64,000 bases of DNA from Clostridiaceae bacterium (GTDB lineage: Bacteria; Bacillota; Clostridia; Lachnospirales; Lachnospiraceae): contig CAJTGF010000002.1 of NCBI GenBank assembly GCA_910575585.1, positions 124,001-188,000 of the forward strand, given 5' to 3'. Shown here one piece after another: positions 16,454 through 48,000 of the stretch. The stretch's first letter is position 1. Every line of letters begins with the position of its first letter. The position numbers were made by a program, and so were the translations under genes. The notes beneath the pieces were generated by a model. That model had not been told where the DNA came from, did no database searches, and saw nothing but the letters and a program-made list of their open reading frames with translations.

Positions 16454-16456
16454 CCA

Positions 16457-25351: not shown

Positions 25352-25377
25352 TCCAGTTCCTCCTTCAAATCTGACAT

Positions 25378-25402
25378 CAAAAAAAGCACCTCATAGGGTG
25401 CA
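25378..25402 (-). terminator. Terminator after the receptor-binding protein gene
   Basis: Minus strand GCACC-CTATGA-GGTGC then T7; short but GC-rich, 8 bp past the stop codon. Confidence 0.6.
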
Positions 25403-25409
25403 GTTACTG

Positions 25410-27533: not shown

Positions 27534-27544
27534 TCTCCTGCCTC

Positions 27545-32400: not shown

Positions 32401-32443
32401 CGCCGATCTCCACCGTGATTCCCTGTATCCTTGACGCTCCCAC
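29423..32443 (-). CDS. Phage tail tape measure protein
   Basis: Start assigned to GTG 32443 (MGASRIQGITVEIGGDTTKL) with GGGGAGGTG upstream; an upstream in-frame extension crosses terminator hairpins and is unlikely. The 1006-residue protein has an N-terminal coiled coil (ALKGVNGEIRTTQSQLRDVE), a TP901-type core with AMNYMAMAGWKTSDML, membrane-like helices around 500-570, and a long amphipathic repeat region built from units like AWEAIKSAVSSAIEAIKN. It sets tail length and goes through the membrane at DNA entry. Two terminators stand just upstream of its start. Confidence 0.9.
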   Translation of the reverse strand: MGASRIQGITVEIGGDTTKLTAALKGVNGEIRTTQSQLRDVERLLKLDPGNTELLAQKHRLLADAVRETKEKLETLKAAAEQANEALAKGEITQEQYDGLQREIIETEERLKSLEEQASQSAVAVQKIAAVGEDLKNLGDKISGVGTTLTKTVTAPIVGLGTMAVKTAADFDTAMSQVGAVSGATGSELEALRDKAREMGSKTKFSASEAAEAMNYMAMAGWKTSDMLSGIEGIMNLAAASGEDLATTSDIVTDALTAFGLTAADSGHFADILAAASSNANTNVSMMGETFKYCAPIAGALGFSAEDTAEAIGLMGNAGIKSTQAGTALRTIMSNLSGEVKICGSSIGEVTIATTNADGSMRDLSAILADCRTAFGGLSESEKAAAAEALVGKNAMSGFLALMNAAPADIEKVSSAIANCDGKSAEMAATMQDNLAGQLTILKSQLEELAISFGEILMPAIRQIVTWVQGFVDKLNGMDEGTKNTIVTIGLLAAAIGPVLIVIGKVVSAVGSIMTFIPTLIGGISSIGGGLSALWGILAANPVTLVIAAIAALIAIFVALWNNCEEFREFWINLWNVIKEAAVAVWNGLKDFFSNIWNAITGAAQSIWNGLKDFFSGLWEGIKNIFQTVLDVIKTLIVARFEFYKLIITTVLNVIQTVVSTVWNAIKTVIETVTNAIGSFISSAWEAIRNTVTTVMEAIRNVITTVWEAIKTAVTAVLSAIKDVVVSAWEAIKNAISTAMEAIRSAVIAAWEAIKSAVSSAIEAIKNVAVAAWEAIKSAVSSVVGAIKEVITSVWNAIKSTVTSIVGGLKDAVVNVFNSLLSGIKNAMSGIAGAVKSGFDAAINFIKSLPSQALQWGKDIIGGLIDGIKSKISGLVDSVKDIAGTIASFLHFSEPDEGPLSNFHTFMPDMIDLLGKGIRGNLGKLTGPMKELAGMLIPEAGAMESITSSGNGGNGNASLAARLDAMYEVVTKYLPRLANSQVVLDSGVLVGELSDGLNRELGKAYS

Positions 32444-32463
32444 CCCCAAAGCACCTCCCCACG

Positions 32464-32487
32464 AAAAAAGGAAGCCAAAAGGCTCCC
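32464..32487 (-). terminator. Terminator directly before the tape measure gene
   Basis: Minus strand GGGAGCC-TTTT-GGCTTCC then T6, ending about 20 bp before the GTG start. Confidence 0.7.
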
Positions 32488-32500
32488 TGAAAAAATGCGC

Positions 32501-32532
32501 AAAAAAAGACACCTGCTGTTATGGCAAGTGCC
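32501..32532 (-). terminator. Terminator of the DUF1835/DUF3658 moron gene
   Basis: Minus strand GGCACTTGC pairs, with two G-T pairs, with GCAGGTGTC around a 7-nt loop, then T7; it lies 32 bp after the stop codon. Confidence 0.75.
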
Positions 32533-33498: not shown

Positions 33499-33527
33499 AT
33501 CATAGCAGAAAAAGGCTGTTTTTTCAA
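33499..33527 (-). promoter_or_regulatory. Promoter of the moron gene
   Basis: Minus strand TTGAAA (33522-33527), exact 17-bp spacer, TATGAT (33499-33504), placed immediately after the stop codon of the preceding tail gene. Confidence 0.75.
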
Positions 33528-33692
33528 TCAAAATGCGTCATACGCAGCCTGATCAGCCAGTACAGCGTAGGAAAAGGAATCATTGCGGCTCTCGCAGTAC
33601 ATATCATTGATAAGCCCGATGGAGAGCAGGTCAAGGTCCGACATCGAAAGCCCTAGCTGCACACACCGCAGAAGAAACAGCGGCGTGGTCAT
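33528..33692 (-). CDS. Small tail-assembly protein
   Basis: A 54-residue frame starting MTTPLFLLRCVQLGLSMSDLDLL and ending AAYDAF. Its ATG overlaps the stop of the upstream chaperone gene by 4 bp (ATGA at 33689-33692). Position and the style GLSMSDLDLLSIGLINDMYCES match the small second chaperone (gpGT-tail equivalent) that precedes the tape measure gene in Lachnospiraceae siphophages. Here it appears as a separate gene rather than a ribosomal frameshift product. Confidence 0.7.
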   Translation of the reverse strand: MTTPLFLLRCVQLGLSMSDLDLLSIGLINDMYCESRNDSFSYAVLADQAAYDAF

Positions 33693-34003
33693 TTCCCGCT
33701 CAGTTGGGCGAAGTTTTTTTTAGCCTCCACATCCGTCTTTACATTCAATCCCCACAGTTCTATCAATTGTGGCAGGACCTGATAAATGGAAAAGGTGTTG
33801 AAACCGTCCAACCATTCATCCACTTCATTCGGTATCTGTGGGTCGGCGTGCTTCGCCATCGTGTAGGCGATATTCTCGAACATCTCCAATGAGAACAGGT
33901 CGAGGTTGGAATTTTCCTCATCACCCTCGCCTATGCTCTTTTCCAGAATCCGCAAATCCTTAACTGTTCCAGAAAGGAGTGGCAGGAATGAAAAAAAGTA
34001 CAT
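33689..34003 (-). pseudogene. Tail-assembly chaperone, 5' truncated
   Basis: From about residue 15 (KDLRILEKSIGEGDEEN) to the end the 104-residue frame reads like a phage tail chaperone (EMFENIAYTMAKHADP, VDEWLDGFNTFSIY). The first 14 residues (MYFFSFLPLLSGTV) are unlike it and are antisense to the 5' end of the HxlR gene on the other strand. So the phage gene has lost its N-terminus at about 33962, which marks the right edge of the surviving phage DNA. Everything normally upstream (major tail, capsid, portal, terminase) is absent. Confidence 0.75.
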
Positions 34004-34317
34004 CGGCTGTTGAACGCTGCAAAACAGTTTCTACCATACAAAAAATTTTAGGCGGTAAATGGAAAATTGAAATCATTTATTACATCGCTTTTCGGGATAT
34101 ACACCGCTTCGGAGAGCTTCGCAGGCATATCGGCGATATTACGGAATCGAGCCTGACAAAGCAACTTCGGGAATTGGAAGCAGACGGATTCATTACTCGC
34201 CATGATTACAAAGAAGTTCCTCCCCATGTGGAATATAATCTTACTGACTTGGGGAAAAGCTTCATTCCCGTCTTTGAGCATATGAAACAATGGGGAGATG
34301 AAAACCTCAGCGAGTAA
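33988..34317 (+). CDS. HxlR-family regulator (second copy)
   Basis: Start at ATG 33988 after AAGGAGTGGCAGGA; 109 residues. It shows the HxlR core KILGGKWKIEIIYYI, the recognition helix TESSLTKQLRELEADGF and the wing PPHVEYNLTDLGKS. Cys11 (VERCKTV) precedes the helix as in redox-type members. The region is AT-rich compared with neighbours. It lies at the junction with the phage remnant and is followed 49 bp later by an AraC regulator, so the two may be one operon. Its target is not visible here. Confidence 0.85.
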   Translation: MKKSTSAVERCKTVSTIQKILGGKWKIEIIYYIAFRDIHRFGELRRHIGDITESSLTKQLRELEADGFITRHDYKEVPPHVEYNLTDLGKSFIPVFEHMKQWGDENLSE

Positions 34318-34366
34318 ATAACGCACATTATCTGGCAGGCACATAAATAGTTAGGAAGTAATACTT

Positions 34367-35170
34367 ATGGCAACAAATAGCATACGCTACATATATAATT
34401 CTAATATGGGCATGGAATTGATTTTCTGTGAACATTCAACAATATCCTATCCCACTCATAACCATGTTTCCGTGCTTACAATCGGCATTGTGTTAGATGG
34501 CTCTATTGTGCTTACTGCGAATAGTAATGTAAAGGTTTATGAAAAAAATCAGACCTTTATCATCTGCCCATATATGCCGCATAGCATTTCAACACATAGC
34601 AGCTATACTTTGCTAAGTTTATGTATTGATAAAAATATTGCCGCACACTATTCCGCCGATAAAATAAGGCATAACATAATGGTTCTGTTAATGAATGCTT
34701 TAAATACAGAAAGAATCAAACAGTACCAGATATTACAATTATTGGACTGCTTAAACTCGTTTGCCGCCTATACAGATTGGCACTCTGAAAGCCAAAATCC
34801 ATTTATCAATAACCTAAAAAAGCAGTTGGAATTATACCCCGAAGCCAAAGTTAGTATTGAAGAAATGGCTCAAAACGCATTTATCAGTAAATACCATTTC
34901 ATCCGAAGTTTTAAGGCCGAAGTGGGACTTACACCGCATCAGTTTCAACTTCAAAACCGCATTCGCAAGGCACAACGATTGATGCACAATGCTGAAACAA
35001 TAACAGAAGTGGCTTTGACCACAGGTTTTTGCGACCAAAGCCACTTCATAAAACAATTTGAAAAGCAGGTAGGCTTACCTCCGCTAACTTATAAATTATC
35101 TTCCCAAACAATCTTAAAGGATACCTCTATACCATTTGGCAATATTGAGGAAATTAAAACTGGGAAATGA
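34367..35170 (+). CDS. AraC-family regulator
   Basis: A 267-residue protein with a cupin-like N-terminal sensor domain (SYPTHNHVSVLTIGIVLDGS, residues 30-50) and a C-terminal pair of helix-turn-helix motifs (VSIEEMAQNAFISKYHFIRSF and ITEVALTTGFCDQSHFIKQF), ending in the PPLTYK signature. The coding DNA is AT-rich and differs from the flanking chromosome, which suggests recent transfer. No structural gene follows; 35171-35392 holds no gene that I can support. The inducer is unknown. Confidence 0.88.
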   Translation: MATNSIRYIYNSNMGMELIFCEHSTISYPTHNHVSVLTIGIVLDGSIVLTANSNVKVYEKNQTFIICPYMPHSISTHSSYTLLSLCIDKNIAAHYSADKIRHNIMVLLMNALNTERIKQYQILQLLDCLNSFAAYTDWHSESQNPFINNLKKQLELYPEAKVSIEEMAQNAFISKYHFIRSFKAEVGLTPHQFQLQNRIRKAQRLMHNAETITEVALTTGFCDQSHFIKQFEKQVGLPPLTYKLSSQTILKDTSIPFGNIEEIKTGK

Positions 35171-35356
35171 GTTAGCACAATGCAGGCATAAATTTTGCAA
35201 ACAGATAAAGACCATCTTCTCCTGCAATGACTTCATGCCATAATAAATTTATTTAGACTATGCAAAATGATTTTTCTTGGATTCGATATAAAAACCATAA
35301 ATTTTACAAATCAATTATACAACAAACGCATTAAGATTTCTACTCTCATAAGATTA

Positions 35357-35389
35357 AAGGCGGCATCAGCTTCACGCCGATGCCGTCCC
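35357..35389 (-). terminator. Terminator after tnpV
   Basis: Minus strand GGCATCGGC-GTGAA-GCTGATGCC stem (one G-T pair) then TTTAAT, a few bases past the stop. Confidence 0.6.
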
Positions 35390-35392
35390 TAA

Positions 35393-35740
35393 TTAGCTAT
35401 AAATCATTTCTTTTAAAACGATTTCTTCCGCCTGTTGCCTAACGCAATTCATAATTTTTGTCCATTTTATAGGATTATTCTCTTTTAATTGTTCGGTAAT
35501 ACCTTGGGCTTGTTTCATCTGTTCTACAATCCGAAAGACACGCCTTTGTGCTTGACTGTCAATTTCAATAAGGTACTCATTAAGATAAGTTATTCTAAGG
35601 TAATGTTGTAGAAAATATAAATGTCGCTGTCCATAAATACCAATTTCAAAATTTCCTGTGTCTGGTGTTTCAAGATTAGGAACTGCATAATCGCTTTCTT
35701 TTCGGTATGTACCGCCGAATTGCTCAAATAATGATTTCAT
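35393..35740 (-). CDS. TnpV-like transposon protein
   Basis: Start at ATG 35740 (MKSLFEQFGGTYRKESDY) after TTGGAGGAAACTACA; 115 residues. The order PNLETPDTGNFEIGIYGQRH, EIDSQAQRRVFRIVEQMKQA, GITEQLKENNPIKW matches TnpV proteins of Tn4451-like mobilisable transposons, whose role is not established. No tnpX, tnpZ or other transposon genes lie beside it, so it is a stranded remnant or accessory. It marks the right end of the mobile region. Confidence 0.8.
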   Translation of the reverse strand: MKSLFEQFGGTYRKESDYAVPNLETPDTGNFEIGIYGQRHLYFLQHYLRITYLNEYLIEIDSQAQRRVFRIVEQMKQAQGITEQLKENNPIKWTKIMNCVRQQAEEIVLKEMIYS

Positions 35741-35855
35741 TGTAGTTTCCTCCAATTATATTTAGTTATTCCTACAAATTCATCGTATCCAACCGTCATT
35801 ATAAATTTTCTAAAACGCCACAAGAGACACTTCCTTATGTGAAGTATCCCTTTGG

Positions 35856-36092
35856 GGGCTCATTGATTTCGGCATCCTGGGCGCCGGCGATCCCTCCTGC
35901 GACTATGCCATGGCCTGGACCTATTTTGACCGCCCGTCCAGAACCACGTTTCTAAAGGGACTGTCTGACGATATGATCAGCCGCGCCATGGGATGGGCCT
36001 TATGGAAGGCATTGATCACTTATGATGATGAGAATCCGGACGTTAAAAATAATGCGCGTTATACGGTTGAGACGATCCTTAAGGAAGCCTGA
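35856..36092 (+). pseudogene. 3' stump of an APH-family phosphotransferase gene
   Basis: The frame reads GLIDFGILGAGDPSCDYAMA from 35856, the DFG metal-binding motif and following helix of aminoglycoside/macrolide-phosphotransferase-like kinases, and ends SRAMGWALWKALITYDD ... ETILKEA. The N-lobe, the HGD catalytic loop and about two thirds of a normal 300-residue gene are missing. The upstream join is near 35850, next to the TnpV promoter region. The chromosome was evidently cut here by the arrival or partial loss of mobile DNA. The missing 5' part was not found elsewhere in the window. Confidence 0.7.
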
Positions 36093-36917: not shown

Positions 36918-38936
36918 TTACCCTTTCTTCTTGTGGACATTGCGGATGGTCTTTTTCGGTCTGGTCTGCTGGATGTCTCTCCCTTTTTCCGTCAGACGGT
37001 TTCCCTGCCCCCTGCCGTCCCGTCTTTGCTGTCCCCGCTTCTCTCTCACCTCGCTGCCGCCAGCCAGACGTTTGCGGCCTGGCTGGCTGGCCCTGCCCGT
37101 TAGCCCCTTTTTCTCGCCTTCCCGGCTATCCCCGCCGCTTTGCCGGGGACGTATGAGGCATCGTTTGTCATATCCGATCAGATCCGTTCTCCCCGCAAGC
37201 CTTAAAGCCTCCTCCACCAGCCCGTAATTCTTTGGATTCCGGTACTGGATCAGCGCCCTCTGCATGGCTTTCTCATGGGGATTGGTGGGAACATACACCT
37301 TTTCCATAGTCCTGCAGTCATACCCCGTATAGTACATGCAGGTGGAAATGGTGGACGGCGTGGGGTAAAAGTCCTGGACCTGCTCCGGCATATACCCAAG
37401 ATCCCGCAGATACTCTGCCAGCTCCACAGCTTCCTTCATGGTAGAACCGGGGTGAGAGGACATCAGATACGGCACCAGGTACTGTTTCTTCCCGATCCGC
37501 CGGTTCATCTCCTCATATTCCCGGACAAACTGCCGGTACACCTTATTCTCCGGCTTGCCCATACGTTTCAGTACCTGGTCCGCCACGTGCTCCGGCGCCA
37601 CTTTCAGCTGCCCGCTGACATGGTGTTCGCACAGTTCCCGCAAAAACTTACCGCCTGTGTCCGCCAAAACATAATCAAACCGGATCCCGGAGCGGATAAA
37701 CACCTTCTTCACCTTTGGCAGTGACCTTAATTTCCGCAGAAGCTCTATATAATCGCTGTGGTCCGCCCGCAGATTCCCGCAGGGCTTTGGAAAGAGGCAC
37801 TGCCTGTCCCTGCAGGCCCCGGCAGTCAGCTGTTTTGCGCAGGCCGGAAACCGAAAATCCGCCGTAGGTCCCCCCACGTCATGGATATACCCCTTAAAAT
37901 CCGCCTCCTCTGTCAAAAGCCTGGCCTCCTTCACCAGAGACTCATGGCTTCTGGCCTGGATGATCCGCCCCTGATGAAAGGTCAGGGCGCAGAAACTGCA
38001 GGCTCCAAAACACCCCCGGCTGCTGATCAGGCTGAACTTGATCTCCCGGATAGCCGGCACGCCCCCCAATTCCTCGTAAGAAGGATGGTAGCTGCGCATG
38101 TAGGGCAGGTCGTAGACCCTGTCCATCTCCTCCTGGCTCAAAGGCTTTGACGGCGGGTTCTGGATCACAAACAGCTTCCCGTCATAAGGCTCCGCCAGAC
38201 GCCTGCCTGTAAAAGGGTCCGTATTGGAATACTGGACGAAAAAACTTCTGGCATATGCTTTCTTATCCTCTAAAAGCTCCCGGTGATCCGGAAGGAGCTC
38301 ATAGTCATACACATGCTCCAAACTTCCCGTCTTATACACCGTTCCGTCCACAAAGGTAATATCTTTCACGTCAATGCCGCTGTTTAGGGCATCGGCGATC
38401 TCCACCATCGACCGCTCCCCCATACCATAGGAGATAAGATCCGCCTGGGAGTCCAAAAGGATGGACCGTTTCAGTCTGTCGGACCAGTAGTCATAGTGGG
38501 CCAGACGCCGCAGGCTGGCCTCGATCCCGCCGATGATGATGGGACTGTCCTTGTATACGGACCGGACAAGGTTGCAGTACACAACCGTAGCGTGATCCGG
38601 CCGCTTGCCCATGACGCCTCCCGGCGTATAGGAATCTTCCTTCCGCCTTTTCTTGGAAACGGAATAGTGGTTCACCATGGAATCCATATTGCCCGCCGAC
38701 ACTAAGAATCCAAGTCTGGGCTTTCCCAGGACGGCAATGCTTTTTTCGTCTTTCCAATCCGGCTGGGCAATGATCCCTACCTTATAGCCGTGGGCTTCCA
38801 GCACCCGGGATATGACGGCATGGCCAAAGGAGGGGTGATCCACATAGGCATCCCCGCAAATATACACAAAATCACACTGATTCCATCCCCGGATGCTCAT
38901 GTCCGCCCGGCTTACGGGCAAAAAATCCGGCTTCAT
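36918..38936 (-). CDS. YgiQ-family radical SAM protein
   Basis: A 672-residue protein with a B12-binding-like N-terminal domain (QCDFVYICGDAYVDHPSFG), the radical SAM motif CFGACSFC in ISSRGCFGACSFCAL, and the YgiQ-specific region KVAPEHVADQVLKRMGKPE. It uses a 4Fe-4S cluster and SAM for an unknown radical reaction. The last 80 residues are basic and low-complexity (RPRQSGGDSREGEKKG...KKTIRNVHKKKG), a typical tail. Its ATG overlaps the stop codon of the upstream HAD gene by 4 bp, so both are translated together. Confidence 0.9.
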   Translation of the reverse strand: MKPDFLPVSRADMSIRGWNQCDFVYICGDAYVDHPSFGHAVISRVLEAHGYKVGIIAQPDWKDEKSIAVLGKPRLGFLVSAGNMDSMVNHYSVSKKRRKEDSYTPGGVMGKRPDHATVVYCNLVRSVYKDSPIIIGGIEASLRRLAHYDYWSDRLKRSILLDSQADLISYGMGERSMVEIADALNSGIDVKDITFVDGTVYKTGSLEHVYDYELLPDHRELLEDKKAYARSFFVQYSNTDPFTGRRLAEPYDGKLFVIQNPPSKPLSQEEMDRVYDLPYMRSYHPSYEELGGVPAIREIKFSLISSRGCFGACSFCALTFHQGRIIQARSHESLVKEARLLTEEADFKGYIHDVGGPTADFRFPACAKQLTAGACRDRQCLFPKPCGNLRADHSDYIELLRKLRSLPKVKKVFIRSGIRFDYVLADTGGKFLRELCEHHVSGQLKVAPEHVADQVLKRMGKPENKVYRQFVREYEEMNRRIGKKQYLVPYLMSSHPGSTMKEAVELAEYLRDLGYMPEQVQDFYPTPSTISTCMYYTGYDCRTMEKVYVPTNPHEKAMQRALIQYRNPKNYGLVEEALRLAGRTDLIGYDKRCLIRPRQSGGDSREGEKKGLTGRASQPGRKRLAGGSEVREKRGQQRRDGRGQGNRLTEKGRDIQQTRPKKTIRNVHKKKG

Positions 38937-39601
38937 AGTCTGCCCCCGTCCATGATCTCAAAATAATCGCTGATAAAATAATCCGCCAATCCCCGCTTCT
39001 CCTCCTCCATATGTCTGGAAAACGCATCCTCCACCGCGCACACGGTCATACCGGCCCGCTTCCCGGCCAAAATCCCCGCAGGCACATCCTCAAACACCAG
39101 ACACTGTCCGGGGGATACGTGAAGATCTTCGGCCACTTTCAGATAGATATCCGGGCTGGGCTTGCCGGCCTTCACCTGGCATGCCGTGGTCACAACCTGA
39201 AAAAACGGCCTCATGCCCAGGGAATCCAAAACCGCGTCCACCATCTCCCAGCTGTTGCTGGTGGCAATACCGCACAGCATCCCTCTGTCTCTGGCATAGG
39301 ACAAAAACTCCTTAGCCCCCCTTTTAGCTGGAACCTCACGGCGGTACTTGTCTATGGACATCTCTATCCAGGCTCTCTTGATCTGCTCCACCGTCAAGGG
39401 CAGACAAAACTTCTCCTTAAAATACATGGCCGTCTCCGTAAAGCTCATGCCCTCGATGGCCTTCTGAAGCTCCGGCGGACACGAATGGCCGTATCTGGCC
39501 AAAAACTCCATGTCAATACGCTTCCACATCCACATGGAATCCACCAAGGTCCCGTCCAGATCAAAAATGATCGCTTTCTTTTCCTTTAAAATATCTGTCA
39601 T
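38933..39601 (-). CDS. HAD-family phosphatase/phosphoglucomutase-like
   Basis: A 222-residue HAD hydrolase. Motif I is FDLDGTLVDS (nucleophile Asp at the first D), motif II is the Ser/Thr of IATSNSW, motif III Lys lies in KAGKPSPD, and motif IV is VFEDVPAG. A helical cap of the beta-phosphoglucomutase type lies between. It acts on a small phosphorylated metabolite that cannot be named. GGGAGAGGAT precedes the ATG; mazG ends 24 bp upstream, so read-through from the nucleotide operon is possible. It overlaps ygiQ by 4 bp. Confidence 0.88.
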   Translation of the reverse strand: MTDILKEKKAIIFDLDGTLVDSMWMWKRIDMEFLARYGHSCPPELQKAIEGMSFTETAMYFKEKFCLPLTVEQIKRAWIEMSIDKYRREVPAKRGAKEFLSYARDRGMLCGIATSNSWEMVDAVLDSLGMRPFFQVVTTACQVKAGKPSPDIYLKVAEDLHVSPGQCLVFEDVPAGILAGKRAGMTVCAVEDAFSRHMEEEKRGLADYFISDYFEIMDGGRL

Positions 39602-39625
39602 ATCCTCTCCCGCTCTAATTACACC

Positions 39626-39955
39626 TTATGTTTCTAATCTATAAATTGATTTTTCCGTATCAAAACCCTCTGGATATCTTTTTTTTAATTTTTCAATGTT
39701 TTTAGCAAGCACCTCGTCTAAATTTATTTCCAAAGCGCTTGCTGTTTCCGCAAGATACCATGCGATATCCCCAAGTTCTTTGATTAACCCCTCTCTATCC
39801 AATTCGTGTCCCTGTGCCAAATGTTTTTTAACAATATTTATTGCCTCGCCTGACTCACCACAAAGTCCCATCACTCCATTTATTAAAATGTTCTTTTTAT
39901 CCAATTCTGTATTCAACGTTGCCATTGCCAAACTTTGATATTCATTTACAGTCAT
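39626..39955 (-). CDS. MazG-like nucleotide pyrophosphohydrolase
   Basis: Start chosen at ATG 39955, eight bases after GGAG; 109 residues. The MazG helical core shows GLCGESGEAINIVKK (ExxE) and KELGDIAWYL (ExxD), the four acidic metal ligands. Such single-domain enzymes hydrolyse (d)NTPs to NMP and pyrophosphate. It is the last gene of an AT-rich operon with a kinase-like protein and a dCTP-deaminase-fold protein, so a role in nucleotide depletion or clean-up is likely. AT-rich codon use differs from the HAD gene next to it. Confidence 0.85.
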   Translation of the reverse strand: MTVNEYQSLAMATLNTELDKKNILINGVMGLCGESGEAINIVKKHLAQGHELDREGLIKELGDIAWYLAETASALEINLDEVLAKNIEKLKKRYPEGFDTEKSIYRLET

Positions 39956-39994
39956 AGTCATATCTCCCATACAAATTCTGTAATATTTCTTAAT

Positions 39995-41047
39995 TCATAT
40001 AATCTCTAACTCACATTTTTGTATGCCTAGCAAACCATAGGAATAGTAATGGCATTTGTTGCATCCAGAGCATTTGTTAATCTCTGACTCGCGATGTTGT
40101 CTAATTTTCAATATCGTTTTCGGATCAGACAACAATTGACGTCCTAATGAAAACGTCAGATTCGGCGGAAATGCTTTTCTGCTCTGTAATACAAATTCCA
40201 TATTACCCGCAACATTCCAAAACATATCCTGATATGTTCCAGCTAACGTTTCGGCTTCTTTTAGAATCGCTGTACGATCTTGTTTAACAGGATAGATCAT
40301 GTTTTTGTCAATATTATAAAACCCATTTGATAAGCTTATGAGATTAAACCCACATTCCTGAAAAAATTCAAATAGTCTTGTTTTATACGCCCATTCATCG
40401 GATCCATCATTGATGCCCTCATAGAGAGAAATTCTTATATCCAGGATTCCCTCTCTTTTTAACAGCTTATCAACAATCTGCCGAATCAGTCTGGCTCCCT
40501 TTGTTTCCCTTGGATTCTCACATCTGCTAACCTCTCTGCTAAGTAATAATGATAACCCGTATCCATGAGCAGCGTGAAGCTGGATTACCTGGAATCCGTC
40601 TTGAAAAGCTTGAGAAATACTTTCCGAAAACAGAGTACTTACCTGATCAAATTGATCAAAACTATCATAAAATTGTCTAAAATATACTAATTGCCCTAAT
40701 ACATCTCCAGTAACAAATTCTTTCTGCATCTTTATTGCTTCAGGCTTCCATGCCAGCTGAATACCTGCATAAGAACCATTTTTCTTTATTTCAGATGCCA
40801 ACGCGCTCCAACACACAGATTTATTTTGAGAAAATACTGCTGTATTTATATTACTTGACCAATTAGTCAAAAGCGAAACATTTCCAATATAGCAGATACC
40901 AATATCCAATCCTGACCGCTCAATAAAAAAATCCTTAAATTCTTTTGATAAAATACCATTAACGCAATACCCTGGGTTAATAGGAGAAAAAAAAACATTC
41001 GTTGGTATATCTAACGAATTAATCTTTATTGAATGAATATTTTCCAT
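39995..41047 (-). CDS. Old-yellow-enzyme-like flavin oxidoreductase, divergent
   Basis: Start at ATG 41047 (MENIHSIKINSLDIPTNVFF) after AGAGGAAAATTA; 350 residues, overlapping the preceding gene by 29 bp. It has the TIM-barrel marks of NADH:flavin oxidoreductases: IQLHAAHGYGLSLLLSREVS (equivalent to HxAHGYLxxQFLSP), AGNME near 305 and SLGRQLLSDP for FMN phosphate. Near the C-terminus CSGCNKC recalls the 4Fe-4S motif of dienoyl-CoA-reductase-type members, but only three cysteines are grouped. The NADH/FAD domains are absent. Its link to nucleotide genes is unusual. Confidence 0.7.
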   Translation of the reverse strand: MENIHSIKINSLDIPTNVFFSPINPGYCVNGILSKEFKDFFIERSGLDIGICYIGNVSLLTNWSSNINTAVFSQNKSVCWSALASEIKKNGSYAGIQLAWKPEAIKMQKEFVTGDVLGQLVYFRQFYDSFDQFDQVSTLFSESISQAFQDGFQVIQLHAAHGYGLSLLLSREVSRCENPRETKGARLIRQIVDKLLKREGILDIRISLYEGINDGSDEWAYKTRLFEFFQECGFNLISLSNGFYNIDKNMIYPVKQDRTAILKEAETLAGTYQDMFWNVAGNMEFVLQSRKAFPPNLTFSLGRQLLSDPKTILKIRQHRESEINKCSGCNKCHYYSYGLLGIQKCELEII

Positions 41048-41834
41048 TAATTTTCCTCTTATAATTCGATACAAAAAAAACACCTATGGCGTAAATTATA
41101 TTTGTTACTATACCGATAAAAACACTGGTCACAGGACTCAGCCAATCCGCTCCGGCACCAACACCCATAATTATTAAGGTAATTATAATGTATAGGATAG
41201 TTGCTATCAAAAAACGACGCTCTGTAATCAAGACTCTCTCTATAATATTAGCGACAGGTATCCCCAAAGTATCCCTTATTTGATCTATTTCATTATAATT
41301 TCCCAAATATTTCTTTAACTCGCCCTTATTTTTGACTATTTGATCATGGCGAATCGGCCAAATTCCGGTTTCATACCCATGTTGTCCATGGTATATATTT
41401 TTTACCGGACTCTGCAATCTGTCAAACTCAATTTTCGCAATGGGATCACCACTGGTTATCTTTAAATAATTGTTTGATAAATTCTGCATAACAATCCCCA
41501 TTCTGCCGACAAAACCTGGATCCGCATAAGTATTTACAGGAACAATGCCGAGAGAAAACAATGACCCTTTTGACAAAACTCTTGCCAGTACATCCTGTGG
41601 AATTTGTAACTTTTCTTTGGTTAAAATGACAATTCTCTGGTGCGGCTTAATCAAAATAATCTCTCCATCCGCAACAGAATGCCTTTCTTCACCTGAATTT
41701 AAATCATAATAGCAATTGCCTGCCCTTAATTCATAACAAGCTTGCTTTATATTCTTTTTATCAAAATCCTCACTGATCAGCTTCCCCTCTTTTACAAACT
41801 GCTCTATCTCTAAATCATTTAATGTACCATACAT
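41019..41834 (-). CDS. dCTP-deaminase/dUTPase-fold protein with C-terminal membrane spans
   Basis: A 271-residue protein. Residues 1-150 follow the Dcd/dUTPase trimer fold: KGSLFSLGIVPVNTYADPGF, then GRMGIVMQNLS and the GDPIAKIEF strand. Compared with active dCTP deaminases, the arginine after the Ser (RSSLxR) and the catalytic Glu in the xxLEFxN strand are replaced (here SLFSLG and IVMQN), so deaminase activity is doubtful. Residues about 205-260 contain two or three membrane spans (FLIATILYIIITLIIMGVG; VFIGIVTNIIYAIGVFFV). The soluble fold plus membrane tail looks like a nucleotide sensor joined to a membrane effector. It sits mid-operon. Confidence 0.75.
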   Translation of the reverse strand: MYGTLNDLEIEQFVKEGKLISEDFDKKNIKQACYELRAGNCYYDLNSGEERHSVADGEIILIKPHQRIVILTKEKLQIPQDVLARVLSKGSLFSLGIVPVNTYADPGFVGRMGIVMQNLSNNYLKITSGDPIAKIEFDRLQSPVKNIYHGQHGYETGIWPIRHDQIVKNKGELKKYLGNYNEIDQIRDTLGIPVANIIERVLITERRFLIATILYIIITLIIMGVGAGADWLSPVTSVFIGIVTNIIYAIGVFFVSNYKRKINGKYSFNKD

Positions 41835-41866
41835 AACCTTTTCTCCCTAGTAAATATCAAAATACT

Positions 41867-42427
41867 CTATCTGCCATAAATATTTATGTTATCTAATGTG
41901 AATAAATTATACAAAAATCGACAAAAACATTCTCCAATCTTTTCAATCGGTTCATTATTCCAGAAAATATAATCATACTCAAATGATTCCACCTCATCAT
42001 CCGAGACATTTCCGAGATGAGTCTTGTCCAATCCATCGCGGTCAGACATGATCAATAAAGAATAATTCTTTATTTGGATGCAGCTTCTAAATGCTTCAAT
42101 TTGGTCCTTTTCCCTAATCTGTACAAACAAAATATCTATATCTTCATTTAAAAAAGTTTTATACTCTTTTACAAGATATGTTGTTGGTAAATCATTATAG
42201 TCTATTAACAAGCGTTTTAGATCAGATAAAAACTTTCGAGACTTTTTATCCTTTTCACCATTCCAGCCACACCTTTGGGCGATCTCCTTAACAGGGGTGA
42301 TTGCTGATATCATTCTCGTTGAATAATAATCATGCGCCGCGTTACATAATGTATCTTTTCCCACCCCGCCTTTACCATTAATAATAATTACAATCTTTTC
42401 TGAAAGCTCATATTTATTTCCTGTCAT
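41867..42427 (-). CDS. P-loop kinase, deoxynucleotide-monophosphate-kinase-like
   Basis: A 186-residue protein with a Walker A motif GKGGVGKDT at residues 18-26 (GKDT is typical of dNMP kinase-like proteins), followed by an alpha/beta fold with FVQIREKDQIEAFRSC (LID-like arginines) and a C-terminal NNEPIEKIGECF segment common in this family. It probably transfers phosphate to a nucleoside monophosphate or acts as a nucleotide-binding switch. It starts 5 bp after the upstream unknown gene and ends 32 bp before the Dcd-fold gene, so it is co-transcribed. The substrate is unknown. Confidence 0.7.
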   Translation of the reverse strand: MTGNKYELSEKIVIIINGKGGVGKDTLCNAAHDYYSTRMISAITPVKEIAQRCGWNGEKDKKSRKFLSDLKRLLIDYNDLPTTYLVKEYKTFLNEDIDILFVQIREKDQIEAFRSCIQIKNYSLLIMSDRDGLDKTHLGNVSDDEVESFEYDYIFWNNEPIEKIGECFCRFLYNLFTLDNINIYGR

Positions 42428-42432
42428 TCACA

Positions 42433-42744
42433 TCACCTCAAAATAAGCTTTCTAAAATTAAAATACATACTTAATACCTCTTTAGTATATACACCATATT
42501 CTTCGTGCATATATTCGGAAACTTTTATAAATCGTTCCGCAGAATAATAGTCCATATCTTCATGTAAATATAAAAATAGCATCGCATTTAAAAGCTTCTC
42601 GTCAGAATAATTATCTTTTTCAAAAAAATCTTTTAAACATTCCCTGCTTCTGTCAAACGTATCTTTATATTTCTTATAGCAATCTTGCAAATTATTATAA
42701 TTCCCCATTTTAAGATACTCAAGCATTTCTATCGTTGCAGTCAT
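42433..42744 (-). CDS. Unknown small helical protein, first gene of the nucleotide operon
   Basis: A 103-residue, all-helical, charged protein (MTATIEMLEYLKMGNYNNLQ ... YTKEVLSMYFNFRKLILR) with no motif that I recognise and no membrane segment. AGAGAGGGTTCACA precedes the ATG. It is the promoter-proximal gene of the operon running to mazG. Its position suggests a regulator or partner of the kinase-like protein, which is inference only. The DNA is AT-rich like the rest of the operon. Confidence 0.65.
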   Translation of the reverse strand: MTATIEMLEYLKMGNYNNLQDCYKKYKDTFDRSRECLKDFFEKDNYSDEKLLNAMLFLYLHEDMDYYSAERFIKVSEYMHEEYGVYTKEVLSMYFNFRKLILR

Positions 42745-42777
42745 TGTGAACCCTCTCTTCTATTGTTTACCGCAATT

Positions 42778-42806
42778 ATTGTAACACACTATATTTAATT
42801 TTACAA
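42778..42806 (-). promoter_or_regulatory. Promoter of the nucleotide operon
   Basis: Minus strand TTGTAA (42801-42806), 17-bp spacer, TACAAT (42778-42783), 34 bp upstream of the first start codon. Confidence 0.6.
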
Positions 42807-42814
42807 CTCATCAC

Positions 42815-44599
42815 TCACTCATAGATCTTTTCAAAAATCTCCGTGTTCACCATCACATCCCCCGGAAATTCCACCCCTGCCGCTGCCTCCCGGTCCACAG
42901 AGACCGCTTCCAGTTTCCTGCACGCCAAAAGAGGCGACAAATCCCGAATGTCATTGTCCATAAGACTGCAGGCCCTTAGATCACCCAACTCCTCCACAAA
43001 GGAGATATCCGTCAGCCCGCACGCATCCAGATACAGCCTTTTCAGCCCCCCAAACCTGGATACAAAGCCGAAATCCCCGTCCTCCTCTGTCTCAAGATCC
43101 TTTATCACGCAATTTATAATCCCCAGTTCCTCCAGTCCGGCATTTCCCTCCAAAGCCTCCGTATCTATCAGGATCTGGGAATCACTGCCTGTCCCCTGGT
43201 CTAAGCGGAACGCTTTCAGGCTGGGAAGGCTTAAAAGCGTTTCCACCCCCACAAACTGGCCGCCCCAGAAATTATCCATGGAAAGCCGCTGCAGCTGCCC
43301 AAGACCAGCCAGCGGCGACACATCCACAGGAGTCTCATACTCCTTGATCGCCATGTGCAGATCCAGGCTTTTCAGCCCCTCAAATCCCCCCAGGATCTCC
43401 AGGCACTGGGGCTCCTTTACCGCGACCCGCAAATTCTCAACCCCCTTAAGCCTTGAAAGTTCCTGGGGCATGATATAACACTGATCCAGAAAATCCACCT
43501 TTTTCAGATTGGGCAGGGCATCCAGCGCAGACAGATCCGCGTCCTCACCGGTGTAGATGGAAAGCTCTTCCAGCTGGCCAAGCCCCTCCAAAAATCCCCA
43601 CTGCTCTGCCGTCATCTTGTCAATATACAGACTTTTTAACTGCTTTAACTCTTTTAAGCTTTCCAGCCCCTTATAGCTCTCCCCGCATCGAAGCTTTAAG
43701 CTTTTCAGTTTGCCGCACTGGCTGATGCCGGTAATATCCGTCTCTCTGGAAGACAGATTGGTGTCCACATCCAGTTCCTCCAGATTTATAAACTGACCGA
43801 TATCCTGCAGGTTATTTCCCATGATGCCGATGCGCAGAATCTTCACATACTTAGGATCCACCACGCCGGCAACCGTGTCCAGCCTGTCGTCCGTATTAAC
43901 GCAGGAGATCCGGCTGTCCGGGTGAAACGTCACCAGGGAAAGCCACACCGCGTCCGTGTTGTCAATCCTGGTAAGCCCTTTAAACATGGTGTAATCCGAT
44001 GGCCAGCTGACCATTTTCGTCCGGTAGGTCCACTTCTTCACCGTGTCCTGAAACGCTTCCTCACTTTCACAGTCCTCATAATCCGTAAAACTGTAGGAGA
44101 TCACATTAAAAGTCTCTCCTCCCTCCCGCTCATAGGCGCACCGGATGTATTTGATCGAGTCAAATTCTTCCTGCGTAATGTCCTCATACTCTTTTCCGAA
44201 AATATCCTTGCAGAAGATCCGAAGGAGCATCCCGTTTTCGTCCACCGGAGCGTCCGCGTCCGACTTGGAAAACACGGACTTTCTGGCCGCGATGTTAAAT
44301 GCCAGGATAATGGCCGCGATCACCGACGCAATGACCAAAAATATAATAAGCGTCCTTTTGGTGCTGTTGACCGCTTCCATCATCTCCTCGCCGCCGCTGT
44401 AATCCACCTGGACATTGATAATGGTCCCCTTGGCCTCGTCAATCAGATATTTCTGACCGCAGTAAGGGCATACTGCGTGGGTTTTATCCGTCAGCTCCAG
44501 AAATCCGCCGCAGTTTTTACACTGCAGCTCCAAAAGCTCCGCCTTCTCGTTGTCATTGGATGTGCGGATCACGTACCCTTCCTTTCTAAGATCCCTCAT
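42815..44599 (-). CDS. Zinc-ribbon, membrane-anchored leucine-rich-repeat protein A
   Basis: Start at ATG 44599 after AAAGGGGGACAGGAACG; 594 residues. The N-terminal zinc ribbon has two CxxC pairs (CKNCGGF ... CPYCGQKY), followed by one membrane span (TLIIFLVIASVIAAIILAF). The external part has an alpha/beta region (ITQEEFDSIKYIRCAYE) and about ten leucine-rich repeats (LEELSIYTGEDADLSALDAL, LKRLYLDACGLTDISF). The topology gives a cytoplasmic zinc knuckle and an outer LRR surface for binding. Function unknown. A shorter paralogue is encoded directly upstream. GC-rich, unlike the nucleotide operon that follows it. Confidence 0.75.
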   Translation of the reverse strand: MRDLRKEGYVIRTSNDNEKAELLELQCKNCGGFLELTDKTHAVCPYCGQKYLIDEAKGTIINVQVDYSGGEEMMEAVNSTKRTLIIFLVIASVIAAIILAFNIAARKSVFSKSDADAPVDENGMLLRIFCKDIFGKEYEDITQEEFDSIKYIRCAYEREGGETFNVISYSFTDYEDCESEEAFQDTVKKWTYRTKMVSWPSDYTMFKGLTRIDNTDAVWLSLVTFHPDSRISCVNTDDRLDTVAGVVDPKYVKILRIGIMGNNLQDIGQFINLEELDVDTNLSSRETDITGISQCGKLKSLKLRCGESYKGLESLKELKQLKSLYIDKMTAEQWGFLEGLGQLEELSIYTGEDADLSALDALPNLKKVDFLDQCYIMPQELSRLKGVENLRVAVKEPQCLEILGGFEGLKSLDLHMAIKEYETPVDVSPLAGLGQLQRLSMDNFWGGQFVGVETLLSLPSLKAFRLDQGTGSDSQILIDTEALEGNAGLEELGIINCVIKDLETEEDGDFGFVSRFGGLKRLYLDACGLTDISFVEELGDLRACSLMDNDIRDLSPLLACRKLEAVSVDREAAAGVEFPGDVMVNTEIFEKIYE

Positions 44600-44662
44600 C
44601 GTTCCTGTCCCCCTTTGTCCCAATTTCTCTTTTGGCTTTCTTCCTCCCGGCCATCCGTTATG

Positions 44663-45643
44663 CTAATCTCGGCTTAAAACAATCTTCCCGTCATAAAGCT
44701 CCCGCCACTTCTCCCACTGTTCCTCCGTAATATACCATGCCGTTTTCCCTTCTATATGAAAATACTCCAAAGAGGGCAGAGAAAGGATCCCTTCCACGAT
44801 AACCGCCGCGTCCTCCTCGTCCATTTCCACCTGATACAGGATCAGACGCTCCAGGTCGTCAAACCCCTCAAACATCTCCCCGTTTTTCAAAACAGCCTTG
44901 TGGAGCAAACATGTATGGACACCTTTTAAATCTTCCATAAACGAAAAATCCTTAAGCTCCCCTGCCTCCATGATGGCCACCTCCTCCAAAGTGTCCGGAT
45001 TCACCCGTGTAAAGAACTGGGGGGTACCGTATTTGGACAGTCCGTCCAGGCAATAAATGCTTCTTAACTGATTTTCCTCCGGAAGAACGTAATTTTCCCA
45101 CACATCCGTGTACAATTCCAGTTTCGTAAGACCTGTGAAATACTGGATATTGGTGGGAGAAAAATCATCTCTGGGCGCGTCTACGGAAATGGTCCGAAGA
45201 GTCTGCCCAAACGCGTCTTCATCCCTGTAGTCGTAGTAGTCCTCAAAGCTGTAGGTAAACATGTACTCCTTGTCTTTTTCGATTTTCAGATATTTTATTT
45301 TCCTCAAATCCTCTTCCTGTATCTCCGCAACCGGCTTTTCATAAACCTCCATGAGAAAGTCCCGAAATGCCACGCAAAACCGGCTGGCCGACTGCACCAG
45401 GCGCCCTGTGTAGTACTGATACCCGGCAACCGCCGCCCCTGTCACCGCAATGGCCGCCAGGGAACAGATCAGGATCATCTTTCCTGCCGACAGTCGGACC
45501 GATATCTTGTGGGCGCGGTCCGCCGAAATATAGTAACTCCGCCCGCAGGAAGTACACACGCAGGTGTAGGCGTCTTTTTCTGCCAGCTGCCCCCCGCAGG
45601 AAGCGCAAATGGTCTGCCTCCCCTTTATTTTCTTCTGTTTCAT
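44663..45643 (-). CDS. Zinc-ribbon, membrane-anchored leucine-rich-repeat protein B
   Basis: Start at ATG 45643 (MKQKKIKGRQTICASCGGQL) with GGGGAGATCGTTTG before it; 326 residues. It repeats the plan of the next gene: zinc ribbon (CASCGGQ ... CTSCGRSYYIS), one membrane span (MILICSLAAIAVTGAAVAGY), a region with EEDLRKIKYLKIEKDKEYMF that matches the paralogue's ITQEEFDSIKYI, and a short LRR part (TKLELYTDV, LEYFHIEGK). The two lie 63 bp apart and probably arose by duplication. Function unknown. It sits 18 bp downstream of rluB. Confidence 0.72.
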   Translation of the reverse strand: MKQKKIKGRQTICASCGGQLAEKDAYTCVCTSCGRSYYISADRAHKISVRLSAGKMILICSLAAIAVTGAAVAGYQYYTGRLVQSASRFCVAFRDFLMEVYEKPVAEIQEEDLRKIKYLKIEKDKEYMFTYSFEDYYDYRDEDAFGQTLRTISVDAPRDDFSPTNIQYFTGLTKLELYTDVWENYVLPEENQLRSIYCLDGLSKYGTPQFFTRVNPDTLEEVAIMEAGELKDFSFMEDLKGVHTCLLHKAVLKNGEMFEGFDDLERLILYQVEMDEEDAAVIVEGILSLPSLEYFHIEGKTAWYITEEQWEKWRELYDGKIVLSRD

Positions 45644-45661
45644 CAAACGATCTCCCCTTTT

Positions 45662-46456
45662 TCAAACATGCTCTAACATGGCCAGCTCCTCTTTTGTAAG
45701 CTCCCGGTACTCCCCCGGCTTTAACCGCTCATCCAGTTTAAGGCTTCCCATGGAAAGCCGCTTTAAAAATACCACCCTGCACCCTACCGCCTCAAACATC
45801 CGCTTCACCTGATGAAATTTCCCTTCCCCTATGGTCAGGAGTACCTCCTGGATCCCCCGCGGCTCCTCCTTTTCCAAAGGGGTCACGATCTCCAGCTTTG
45901 CAGGCATGAGCCCCGCGCCGTCGGACAACGTGATCCCGTTCCAAAACCGCTCCTTTACGTCTTCTGGCAAACGCCCTTCCACTTTCGCAAAATACGTCTT
46001 GTCCACATGGCGTTTCGGTGACAGCAGCCTGTGAGCCAGATCCCCGTCATTGGTAATAAGCAGCAGCCCCTGGGTGTCAATATCCAGCCGCCCTACCGGA
46101 AACAGATCTTTTCTCCTGGGTCCCCGGGCCCGCTGCCCCTCTTCTATCCCATCGCCCTCAAATGTCCTGGGCGGATTCTTCCTGATCACGTCCAGCACCG
46201 TCTCATGAAGGTTATCCTCCGTGGCCGACACCACTCCCTGAGGCTTGTTCAGCATGTAATACTCATTCTTCGCGTAATCGATCCTTTGCCCATCGCAAAA
46301 CACAACATCCCTGCCGGGTTCAATCCTAGTGTCGGCCTTCTTCACCGTCGCGCCGTTTACCTGTATCCGACCCTGTCTGGCCATCTCCTTCACCTGGCTT
46401 CTTGTCCCCACTGCCATGTCCGCCAAAAACCGGTCCAGGCGCATGCTCTTATCCAT
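45662..46456 (-). CDS. RsuA/RluB-family pseudouridine synthase
   Basis: Start at ATG 46456, overlapping the rsmF stop codon (TGATG). The 264-residue protein has an N-terminal S4 RNA-binding domain (MRLDRFLADMAVGTRSQVKE) and the catalytic motif GRLDIDTQGLLLITNDGDLA, in which the Asp of GRLD attacks the uridine. It modifies uridine in 16S or 23S rRNA (RsuA and RluB cannot be separated with certainty). It is translationally coupled to rsmF, another rRNA-modifying enzyme, in one operon. Confidence 0.9.
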   Translation of the reverse strand: MDKSMRLDRFLADMAVGTRSQVKEMARQGRIQVNGATVKKADTRIEPGRDVVFCDGQRIDYAKNEYYMLNKPQGVVSATEDNLHETVLDVIRKNPPRTFEGDGIEEGQRARGPRRKDLFPVGRLDIDTQGLLLITNDGDLAHRLLSPKRHVDKTYFAKVEGRLPEDVKERFWNGITLSDGAGLMPAKLEIVTPLEKEEPRGIQEVLLTIGEGKFHQVKRMFEAVGCRVVFLKRLSMGSLKLDERLKPGEYRELTKEELAMLEHV

Positions 46457-48000
46457 CACTGCCACCGCCATCCGGCATAATATTTGTTTTTAATGGTCAT
46501 CCCGTTCCCCTTTCCAAATCCAAGCGCAAATCCGTCCACACACACCAGACACCACCCCTGTACCGGACCTTCCCCCTCTTCCAGGCTGATGGTCTCACCC
46601 TTCAGATACCGCACCACCCTAATGTCCTCCCTGCCAAAGGAGACACAGTTGGGATATCCTTTGTTGTCAAGCGTCATGGCAATGGCCTGGCTGGGTTCAA
46701 ACCTTCCATTTTTTATGGTACCCATCCACAGCCCTGTCCGCAGAAATCGAAGCCCCGTTCCCTCCACAAACCCCTCCGGCAGATAGTAGACCATGTCATG
46801 TTTTCTGATGATGCGGGAACCATCCCACACCATCTTTGTCTCTTTCAAAAAATCCTCCAGCTCTCCCCCAAGATCCATGCCGGGATCGTTTGCCGAACGA
46901 TGGTTCTCCCTGTGCTTGCCTCTCCTGCGGCTGTATTCCAGGGTTTTCTTTGACTCTTTCAACGCCTCCGTCCGCTGTCCCATTTTTTCCCGGCCGCTGC
47001 CCTTCTTTCTTTGTTTCAAGTTTTCCCCGCAGCCGCTTTCCGGAAAGGGACCCTGGGATTTCTGGAATTTCATGTCCCCGCTCTTTGCCGTCTGTTCCAC
47101 TTCCTCTTTTGCCTCCCGCTTTCGCAGCAGTGCCGCAAAATGCCCTTCTCCCCGAATTTTATGGGGAAACAATCGGATGCAGCCGGTCAGCCCGATGCCC
47201 CCGGATGCCCCCTCAAAAAGCGGGACGGACATCAGTTCCATGTCAGGAAATCCATCCAATACCCACTGAACGATCTCCTCGTCTTCCTCCCGGGAAAACG
47301 TGCAGGTTGAATACAAAAGATACCCTCCCGCTTTCAGCATCTTTACCGCCTCCTCCATAATATCCCGCTGGAGCGCGCTGTAATATTCAGGTCCCTTTTC
47401 CTCCCATTCTTTCACCATTCCTCTGTCCTTGCGAAACATTCCCTCCCCGGAGCAAGGGGCATCCACTAAAATCTTGTCAAAAAAGCCGGGAAACGCGCCG
47501 CTTAGCCGCTGGGGCGTCTCGCTGAGCACACACATGTTGGATATGCCGAATCGTTCCAAGTTTTTCAAAAGCGCTTTTGCCCTGGAATTGCTGATGTCAT
47601 TGGCCACCAGCATCCCTCTCCCTTTAAGCTTTGCCCCCAGCTCGGTGCTCTTCCCCCCGGGAGCCGCGCACAGATCCAATACCATGTCCCCCGGCTCCAC
47701 AGGCAGCAGCGATGCCGGAGTCATGGCGCTTGGCTCCTGGAGATAATACAGCCCCGCAAAATAGTAAGGATCCTTGGAAAGCCGGTCTTCCCCCTCATAA
47801 AAAAGCCCGTTGGCGATCCATGGAACGGCTTTTGTCCTCCATGGCATCTTCTCCATGCACTCCTGTCGGTCCCATTTCAGCGTGTTCACCCGCAGTCCCC
47901 GGCTTACAGGTCTTTCAAAACTCTCCAGATACTGACCGTACTCTTCGCCCAGAATCTCCTGCATCTCCTTCTTAAACCCTTCCGGAAGCCAATCTGCCAC
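46456..48000 (-). CDS. rsmF: RsmF-type 16S rRNA m5C methyltransferase
   Basis: Start assigned to GTG 48000 (MADWLPEGFKKEMQEILGEEY) because GAGGAGGG lies 5-12 bases upstream; longer frames start inside a TTTACA/TAGAAT promoter-like sequence. The 514-residue protein has the NOL1/NOP2/Sun core: SAM motif LDLCAAPGGKST, VDAPCSGEGMF (Cys of PCSG), and YSTCTFSREEDEE (catalytic Cys in TC). A low-complexity charged linker around 290-340 leads to the C-terminal RNA-binding domain. It methylates cytosine-5 in 16S rRNA. Confidence 0.9.
   Translation of the reverse strand: MADWLPEGFKKEMQEILGEEYGQYLESFERPVSRGLRVNTLKWDRQECMEKMPWRTKAVPWIANGLFYEGEDRLSKDPYYFAGLYYLQEPSAMTPASLLPVEPGDMVLDLCAAPGGKSTELGAKLKGRGMLVANDISNSRAKALLKNLERFGISNMCVLSETPQRLSGAFPGFFDKILVDAPCSGEGMFRKDRGMVKEWEEKGPEYYSALQRDIMEEAVKMLKAGGYLLYSTCTFSREEDEEIVQWVLDGFPDMELMSVPLFEGASGGIGLTGCIRLFPHKIRGEGHFAALLRKREAKEEVEQTAKSGDMKFQKSQGPFPESGCGENLKQRKKGSGREKMGQRTEALKESKKTLEYSRRRGKHRENHRSANDPGMDLGGELEDFLKETKMVWDGSRIIRKHDMVYYLPEGFVEGTGLRFLRTGLWMGTIKNGRFEPSQAIAMTLDNKGYPNCVSFGREDIRVVRYLKGETISLEEGEGPVQGWCLVCVDGFALGFGKGNGMTIKNKYYAGWRWQ

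Follow-up and report, generated by a model that had tools for sequence, protein, structure and literature searches.

Organization of the locus

A 64,000-nucleotide stretch of a Clostridiaceae bacterium genome (contig CAJTGF010000002.1, forward-strand positions 124,001 to 188,000; hereafter the window, with positions counted from its first letter) contains a cassette of five minus-strand genes, A to E, two of which, C and D, recur side by side in many groups of bacteria. The first gene, A (42433–42744), encodes a protein of 103 amino acids that is predicted to be helical. Gene B (41867–42427) encodes 186 residues with a GKDT P-loop and resembles deoxynucleoside-monophosphate kinases (PHROG 139). 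Gene C (41019–41834; 271 residues) combines a DCD/dUTPase fold with two C-terminal membrane helices (Pfam DCD, structural model and hydropathy), and gene D (39995–41047; 350 residues) encodes a flavin mononucleotide (FMN) TIM barrel of the Old Yellow Enzyme (OYE) type (Pfam Oxidored_FMN, structural model and Foldseek). We took the in-frame ATG at 41047 as the start of D; the list of open reading frames (ORFs) also gives a longer, GTG-started frame from 41083. Gene E (39626–39970; 114 residues) encodes a MazG-type nucleotide pyrophosphohydrolase (Pfam MazG, PHROG 229). The genes are separated by 5 nt (A–B), 32 nt (B–C) and 24 nt (D–E), C and D overlap by 29 nt, and 24 nt separate E from the next gene. 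This arrangement of five tightly spaced genes and their domains had been proposed in an earlier reading of the letters (the original prediction), and the ORF list and the Pfam, PHROG and NCBIfam searches agree with it.

The same reading had described the DNA as more AT-rich than its surroundings, which is correct: genes A–E have a GC content of 0.28–0.35, and 0.28–0.32 at third codon positions, versus 0.50–0.56 and 0.62–0.69 in the five nearest flanking genes (36918–38936, 38933–39601, 42815–44623, 44663–45646 and 45662–46471). Further AT-rich stretches lie within the window at approximately 16–21 kb, 33.5–36 kb and 48–50 kb. A promoter-like site inferred from its match to the consensus (42778–42806, minus strand, TTGTAA-17-TACAAT) lies upstream of A, so a single promoter for the cassette, as originally proposed, is plausible from the sequence, although promoter-like matches across the region are not in significant excess (19 observed versus 15.3 ± 4.5 in shuffled sequences).

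Protein C is a predicted nucleotide binder

With 67.1 bits against Pfam DCD (cut-off 27), C belongs to the DCD/dUTPase fold superfamily, whereas its score against the NCBIfam dCTP_deam equivalog, 82.7 bits, is under the cut-off of 92.8. In the AlphaFold2 model (predicted local distance difference test score 87.5, predicted template modeling score 0.70), a DCD domain spanning approximately residues 1–160 is followed by long helices at 192–226 and 232–263. Hydropathy analysis of 29 C sequences gave two separate C-terminal hydrophobic segments in 24, one long merged segment in two and a single segment in three (L043, L049 and L050; L numbers denote individual loci). The nearest folds in the PDB according to Foldseek are archaeal dUTPases (E = 3.2e-13 to 9ln0), one of them with dUMP, followed by dCTP deaminases with dTTP, dUTP or dCTP.

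The catalytic glutamate and the active-site RSSxxR motif of dCTP deaminases are both kept in 13 of 13 ordinary members of that family. In C, the position of the glutamate is occupied by Val, Ile or Thr in all 29 aligned rows and RSSxxR is absent from every one of them; the SSxxR residues, which the Thermococcus pacificus dUTPase keeps, are also lost. The ADPGF motif, including its Asp, is invariant in the alignment, and a GQHGxxxxxWP tail is nearly so. Because the deaminase glutamate and RSSxxR are gone in 29 of 29 rows, C is unlikely to be a deaminase and is best inferred to be a nucleotide binder, which it probably is; the same losses led us to reject C as an active dCTP-deaminase effector. 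From the original description of C as a dCTP-deaminase-fold membrane protein, the fold and the hydrophobic segments stand, and an activity that depletes dCTP has become unlikely.

Protein D is an Old Yellow Enzyme with a C-terminal cysteine motif

D scores 38.9 bits against Pfam Oxidored_FMN (cut-off 27), and its AlphaFold2 model (the same two scores being 91.6 and 0.92) is an OYE barrel that matches YqjM in Foldseek at 4.2e-15. With residues counted from the codon at position 41050, which precedes the ATG by three bases, we found A161, H162, G163 and Y164 of the HAAHGY motif, together with R206, invariant in 26 rows, and H159 present in at least 90%. D is thus an OYE by its FMN TIM barrel with an HxxHxY active site. 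Three cysteines following the barrel are also invariant in the 26 rows and line up with cysteines of the 4Fe-4S motif in six long OYEs; the second cysteine of the CxxC is present in nine of 23 aligned rows, that of the window included. D ends immediately after this motif, and the C-terminal domain of long OYEs that binds flavin adenine dinucleotide (FAD) and NAD(P)H is missing. An N-terminal loop, INTG or INPG, is specific to D. The alignments omit L023 and L047, which are near-duplicates, and L026, whose D (8983–9726) is truncated to 247 residues, versus 324 in L025, and has IS66-type genes directly downstream.

A C–D core with interchangeable partners

A tblastn search with D returned five plasmid records, two from Priestia, two from Sinorhizobium and one from Rhizobium. 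All five encode a C protein of 257–289 residues just upstream of D, and four have an intact MazG gene between the two. In the fifth, Priestia plasmid pB1.1 (L023), the MazG gene has been disrupted into short frames (8607–8978) while C and D are still open; MazG may be dispensable there, or the locus may be decaying. An alignment of four C proteins used as the query then gave 24 loci in genome_contigs, where 82 stretches matched a pattern, and three in viral_contigs. D adjoins C at 20 of the 24 genomic loci and at all three viral ones, as well as on the five plasmids found through D itself, for a total of 28 C–D loci (5 plasmid, 20 genome and 3 viral). The loci without an adjacent D are L033, L045, where C is truncated, and L049 and L050, whose C proteins are distant. 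For comparison, 13 loci of ordinary dCTP deaminases were taken from one order: within approximately 1.5 kb, none of them has D and one has a weak MazG match.

What accompanies the pair varies. MazG is intact in 20 of the 28 C–D loci and broken in L023, and in L029 a NUDIX gene lies between C and D; the six loci with neither are L027, L031, L037, L043, L046 and L047. Thymidylate kinase genes are present in three of these six (L031, L043 and L046) and in two loci that have MazG (L032 and L035). Next to the kinases of L031, L043 and L046 are small proteins without a Pfam match, as gene A is in the window; the kinase and small protein of L047 were judged solely by likeness to L046. In L027 a B-type kinase is encoded directly ahead of C (E = 1.7e-48), and its C and D are 50–51% identical to those of the window. 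L081 carries the first ~180 residues of C fused to MazG, with D as the next gene. Whereas C-E-D is the usual gene order, the window has C-D-E.

The distant C of L049 and of L050 is followed by a gene for a Flavin_Reduct protein (6.4e-17 and 2.1e-20), a flavoprotein of another fold than OYE. By these sequence matches, C is paired with a flavoprotein even where the OYE is absent, except in L033 and in L082, a more distant C-like locus whose next gene resembles a phosphopantetheinyl transferase by eye. C and D together form a conserved core, with MazG, NUDIX and nucleotide kinases as interchangeable accessories. The expectation that all five genes would co-occur was therefore right for D beside C (20 of 24) and for MazG (20 of 28), but there is no fixed five-gene unit, and A and B lie outside the core. 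A plain salvage operon, which the original prediction had doubted, can be rejected on the recurrence of the C–D pairing and of MazG with it.

Genes A, B and E

For A, the family-profile searches gave no family above cut-off and the plasmid records no relative; among 31 genomes, only its own match and one weak match at 6e-4 were found. B has remote similarity to PHROG 139, phage deoxynucleoside-monophosphate kinases (3.4e-9), and no Pfam or NCBIfam model above cut-off; it may be phage-derived. Relatives of B occur in nine of 392 genomes of the order, its own included (E < 1e-39 in eight), and share no common partner with the window. We had considered the B kinase as a marker of the system and dropped it, its relatives being mostly without C or D; later support came from L027 alone.

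Relatives of B also occur in Enterocloster bolteae phages (OP172753–OP172757 and OQ326496; 29–32% identity over 74%), one of them annotated as a deoxynucleoside monophosphate kinase. In another genome (G379, locus L014, 7890–11947), a relative of the B-type kinase lies near a 615-residue caspase-like protein and a radical-SAM-like gene, by eye, and is perhaps part of another conflict system that uses this kinase.

E scores 38.3 bits against Pfam MazG (cut-off 22), which places it in that family, and 2.3e-40 against PHROG 229. It is 26–31% identical to the MazG proteins of three loci with the C-E-D order.

Horizontal acquisition and distribution

The AT-rich DNA occupies a block (39602–42814) between a HAD gene (38933–39601) and a gene with LRR and zinc-ribbon domains (42815–44623), delimited by its composition and by sister loci. 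A close relative of the HAD gene was found in every one of the 26 genomes searched within the genus, its own included. In four of 14 sister loci (L084, L085, L086 and L088), the HAD and LRR genes lie 24–26 bases apart, counting the stop codon, and the cassette is absent; in the other 10, a pseudouridine-synthase-like gene lies upstream of the HAD gene in place of the LRR gene. None of C, D or E was seen within the ~1.5-kb flanks of any of the 14 loci. Because the same two genes adjoin without the cassette, the block is an insertion, and the cassette of the window has been horizontally acquired between two chromosomal genes. No target-site duplication was seen there by eye.

Across the 24 loci from genome_contigs, record titles span Bacillota, Actinomycetes, Bacteroidota, Planctomycetota, Verrucomicrobia, Desulfuromonadaceae, Nitrospinaceae and alpha-, beta- and gammaproteobacteria, with some of the groups assigned from the genus. 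Within this breadth the cassette is rare. Each of 19 genomes checked has one copy. A profile of C matched only three genomes among the 249 of one order: the one from which the search started, the one with the L081 fusion, and one with a remote relative, two of the three counting as cassette hits. Among 219 genomes of one class it matched only the starting genome. In another order, with 235 genomes, the matches were again the starting genome and, beyond it, 13 dCTP deaminases of the ordinary kind. With D, the sole cassette-type match in 392 genomes of the order (1e-12) and 398 of the phylum (1e-25) came from its own genome. Of the 24 matches in the phylum, the remaining 23 (E = 1e-32 to 1e-25) have scores typical of ordinary OYEs and lie mostly in open frames of ~640–750 residues. 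A search of 50,697 phage records gave no match to D; for C, the matches listed there (20 of 24 records) were all to ordinary dCTP deaminases or dUTPases of archaeal viruses. When viral_contigs was scanned with C or D as a single sequence, no relative was found, whereas the C alignment did find its three loci.

Elsewhere in the window, a block at 21324–32512 appears phage-like by eye, with a serine-recombinase-like gene (21324–23105) followed by tail- and holin-like genes. The stretches at 33500–36000 and 16000–21000, with a GC content of 0.38–0.48, contain by eye HxlR- and AraC-like regulators and an MFS-like transporter, and were possibly imported as well.

Defense systems beside the cassette

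Several of the cassettes lie next to defense genes recognized by PADLOC. Directly upstream of the cassette are full-length GajA (1.4e-279) and GajB (6.9e-248) of a Gabija system in L024, and a CBASS cyclase (3.3e-124) with a phospholipase effector (5.1e-164) in L026. Other neighbors match PDC-S28 (L038, 4.7e-266), PDC-M37B (L022, 1.4e-132) and CARF6 (L044, 1.1e-121; also L040), and restriction-modification methyltransferases are encoded nearby in L030 (type I, 2.4e-182), L036 and L053. When 20 neighbors were picked by eye from 189 as defense-like, 15 matched PADLOC at 1e-5; these include a neighbor from L049, where D is absent.

One neighboring gene cluster recurs, at 10023–14789 in L025, 2288–7747 in L039 and 10180–14107 in L040. 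It consists of a CARF6-like gene (tested in L040), an ORC-CDC6-like ATPase (tested in L025), and a metallophosphoesterase and a DNA methyltransferase (annotated in L025 and tested in L039), and is possibly a separate defense unit. L044 has a methyltransferase in addition to its CARF6 match.

Interpretation

Patchy occurrence, mobile carriers and neighboring defense systems make phage defense the leading purpose, and we put at roughly 0.55 the probability that the cassette acts against phages or mobile elements by sensing and altering deoxynucleotides. Its constant parts are a nucleotide-binding fold and a flavoprotein, and its variable ones the enzymes of phosphorylation state, which fits the recognition and modification of a deoxynucleotide. 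Judging from the dUTPase fold and the thymidylate kinases, the target is most likely a pyrimidine. The dUTPase-like domain of C would bind a deoxypyrimidine nucleotide that changes in level or form during infection, and the accessory hydrolase (MazG or NUDIX) or kinase (thymidylate, deoxynucleoside-monophosphate (dNMP) type or deoxynucleoside) would set its phosphorylation state. D would carry out flavin chemistry on the bound nucleotide or on a redox partner, and as a result growth would be arrested or usable precursors would be lost at the membrane. Signaling could run in either of two directions: C might sense the product of D, or might dock D and MazG.

A bolder form of this proposal, which we regard as decidedly doubtful, makes D an ene-reductase acting on DNA precursors in an immune system. 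Uracil and thymine have, in their 5,6-double bond, an activated alkene of the kind OYEs reduce, and FMN TIM barrels are known to reduce pyrimidines, as in dihydrouridine synthase and dihydropyrimidine and dihydroorotate dehydrogenases. MazG or NUDIX would then supply a dNMP, which D would reduce with electrons delivered via its cysteine/Fe-S motif; a kinase of the thymidylate or dNMP type would phosphorylate the product again, and binding of either the substrate or the product at the membrane would fall to C. Usable dTTP and dUTP precursors would be lost, or phage DNA would be poisoned with dihydropyrimidines.

Several observations weigh against a nucleotide-sensing defense system. (i) In L033, C is accompanied by a deoxynucleoside kinase and no D. 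(ii) L037 has C and D, and neither searches nor inspection by eye found a hydrolase or kinase there. (iii) In the L081 fusion, MazG replaces the membrane helices and no hydrophobic segment is left, so killing through a membrane pore cannot be general; a pore-forming effector role for C was rejected as a general mechanism for this reason. (iv) The divergent D of L029 scores 3e-34, little above the ordinary NADPH dehydrogenase NamA of L022 (6e-27). (v) The neighbors in the window itself, HAD and LRR, are not defense genes by domain. (vi) When 10 further neighbors were picked mainly by position and size, three matched PADLOC, versus two of 10 neighbors of ordinary OYE genes, a control drawn from another genome group that is not genome-matched and in which both matches are cross-matches of common domains. 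The original prediction had proposed enrichment near defense islands as a check. Complete Gabija and CBASS systems lie beside single loci, so the association is striking in individual cases, but statistical enrichment over background was not reached.

Could the cassette instead serve housekeeping? Both MazG and NUDIX are folds classically associated with sanitation, and the accessories are all nucleotide enzymes, so a membrane-anchored system might cleanse the pool of damaged or non-canonical deoxynucleoside triphosphates (dNTPs) under stress rather than act against phage, with MazG or NUDIX hydrolyzing, D reducing and the kinase re-phosphorylating. A sanitation function would be expected to occur more regularly than a very rare, patchy cassette found on plasmids and IMG/VR viral contigs and, in the window, as a recent AT-rich insert, and we consider it doubtful. 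The presence on five plasmid records and three IMG/VR contigs, together with relatives of B in Enterocloster and other phages, would suit a fitness or counter-defense module by which plasmids and prophages tune the host dNTP supply or overcome nucleotide-depleting defenses. Most loci, however, are on genome contigs (24), several beside complete defense systems, and the phage records yielded no D and, among the matches listed, no C other than the ordinary archaeal-virus enzymes, which makes this account quite improbable.

It is still harder to see in the cassette a pathway for making, or resisting, a nucleotide-like antimetabolite with D as a tailoring reductase. An OYE, a nucleotide kinase and a pyrophosphohydrolase could form such a small pathway, and plasmid locus L022 lies near lantibiotic genes, but inspection of the 28 C–D loci revealed no exporter or extra biosynthetic gene common to them, and the second Priestia plasmid (L023) is without a lantibiotic neighborhood. 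That the five genes of the window are unrelated cargo inserted together by chance is the least credible account: A has no convincing relative, the relatives of B are mostly without C or D, and the gene order is not the usual one, but B, C and D stand in the same order in L027, with C and D similar to those of the window, and C, D and MazG occur together in 20 of 28 loci.

If the preferred reading of the cassette as a defense system is right, flavin chemistry would join the means by which nucleotides are manipulated in infected bacteria, and a dUTPase/deaminase fold that is catalytically dead would serve as a membrane-tethered nucleotide receptor. The swappable MazG, NUDIX and kinase partners lead to testable predictions about the nucleotide involved. 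A direct test is feasible with the small C-MazG-D cassettes on plasmids of Priestia megaterium (L022) and Sinorhizobium meliloti RU11/001 (L025), two hosts that are readily grown.

Comparison with known systems

Phage defenses based on dCTP deaminases and other dNTP-depleting enzymes exist, and the cassette resembles the dCTP-deaminase defense in its DCD-fold protein, nucleotide theme and patchy occurrence. It differs in that C is without the deaminase glutamate and RSSxxR, carries membrane helices and has a flavoenzyme as its partner. Among the domains that the main text of the DefensePredictor article (PMC13092281) names as predicted, unvalidated defense domains are MazG, MazG-C kinase and dUTPase domains; no flavoenzyme is named with these predicted MazG/dUTPase systems, and the words "flavin" and "oxidoreductase" occur zero times in that main text. 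In PADLOC-DB 2.0.0 (2023), A–E matched nothing better than E = 0.0029, and C matched nothing at E values up to 1. Prokaryotic viperin systems are also distinct, in that Pfam and PADLOC-DB profile scans gave no radical-SAM match in A–E. Our literature search found no description of a DCD–flavoenzyme cassette, although Burroughs et al. 2015, which DefensePredictor cites for predicted nucleotide-modifying defense domains, may contain a prior mention. Together, the database and literature searches suggest that the C–D cassette is undescribed, in line with the original statement that no described system has this composition.

At the level of the individual proteins, both core components have recognizable relatives. 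The best structural match to C is the Thermococcus pacificus dUTPase (PDB entries 8y1w and 9ln0), of which 8y1w is likewise without the deaminase glutamate; the archaeal enzyme keeps RSSLAREG, whereas C has (S/T)KGxLFSxG in most rows, plus the membrane helices. D is without the FAD/NAD(P)H domain of long OYEs of the 2,4-dienoyl-CoA reductase type, but its cysteine motif is in register with their 4Fe-4S motif, and with the short OYEs YqjM and NamA it shares the FMN TIM barrel and a HAAHGY-type active site.

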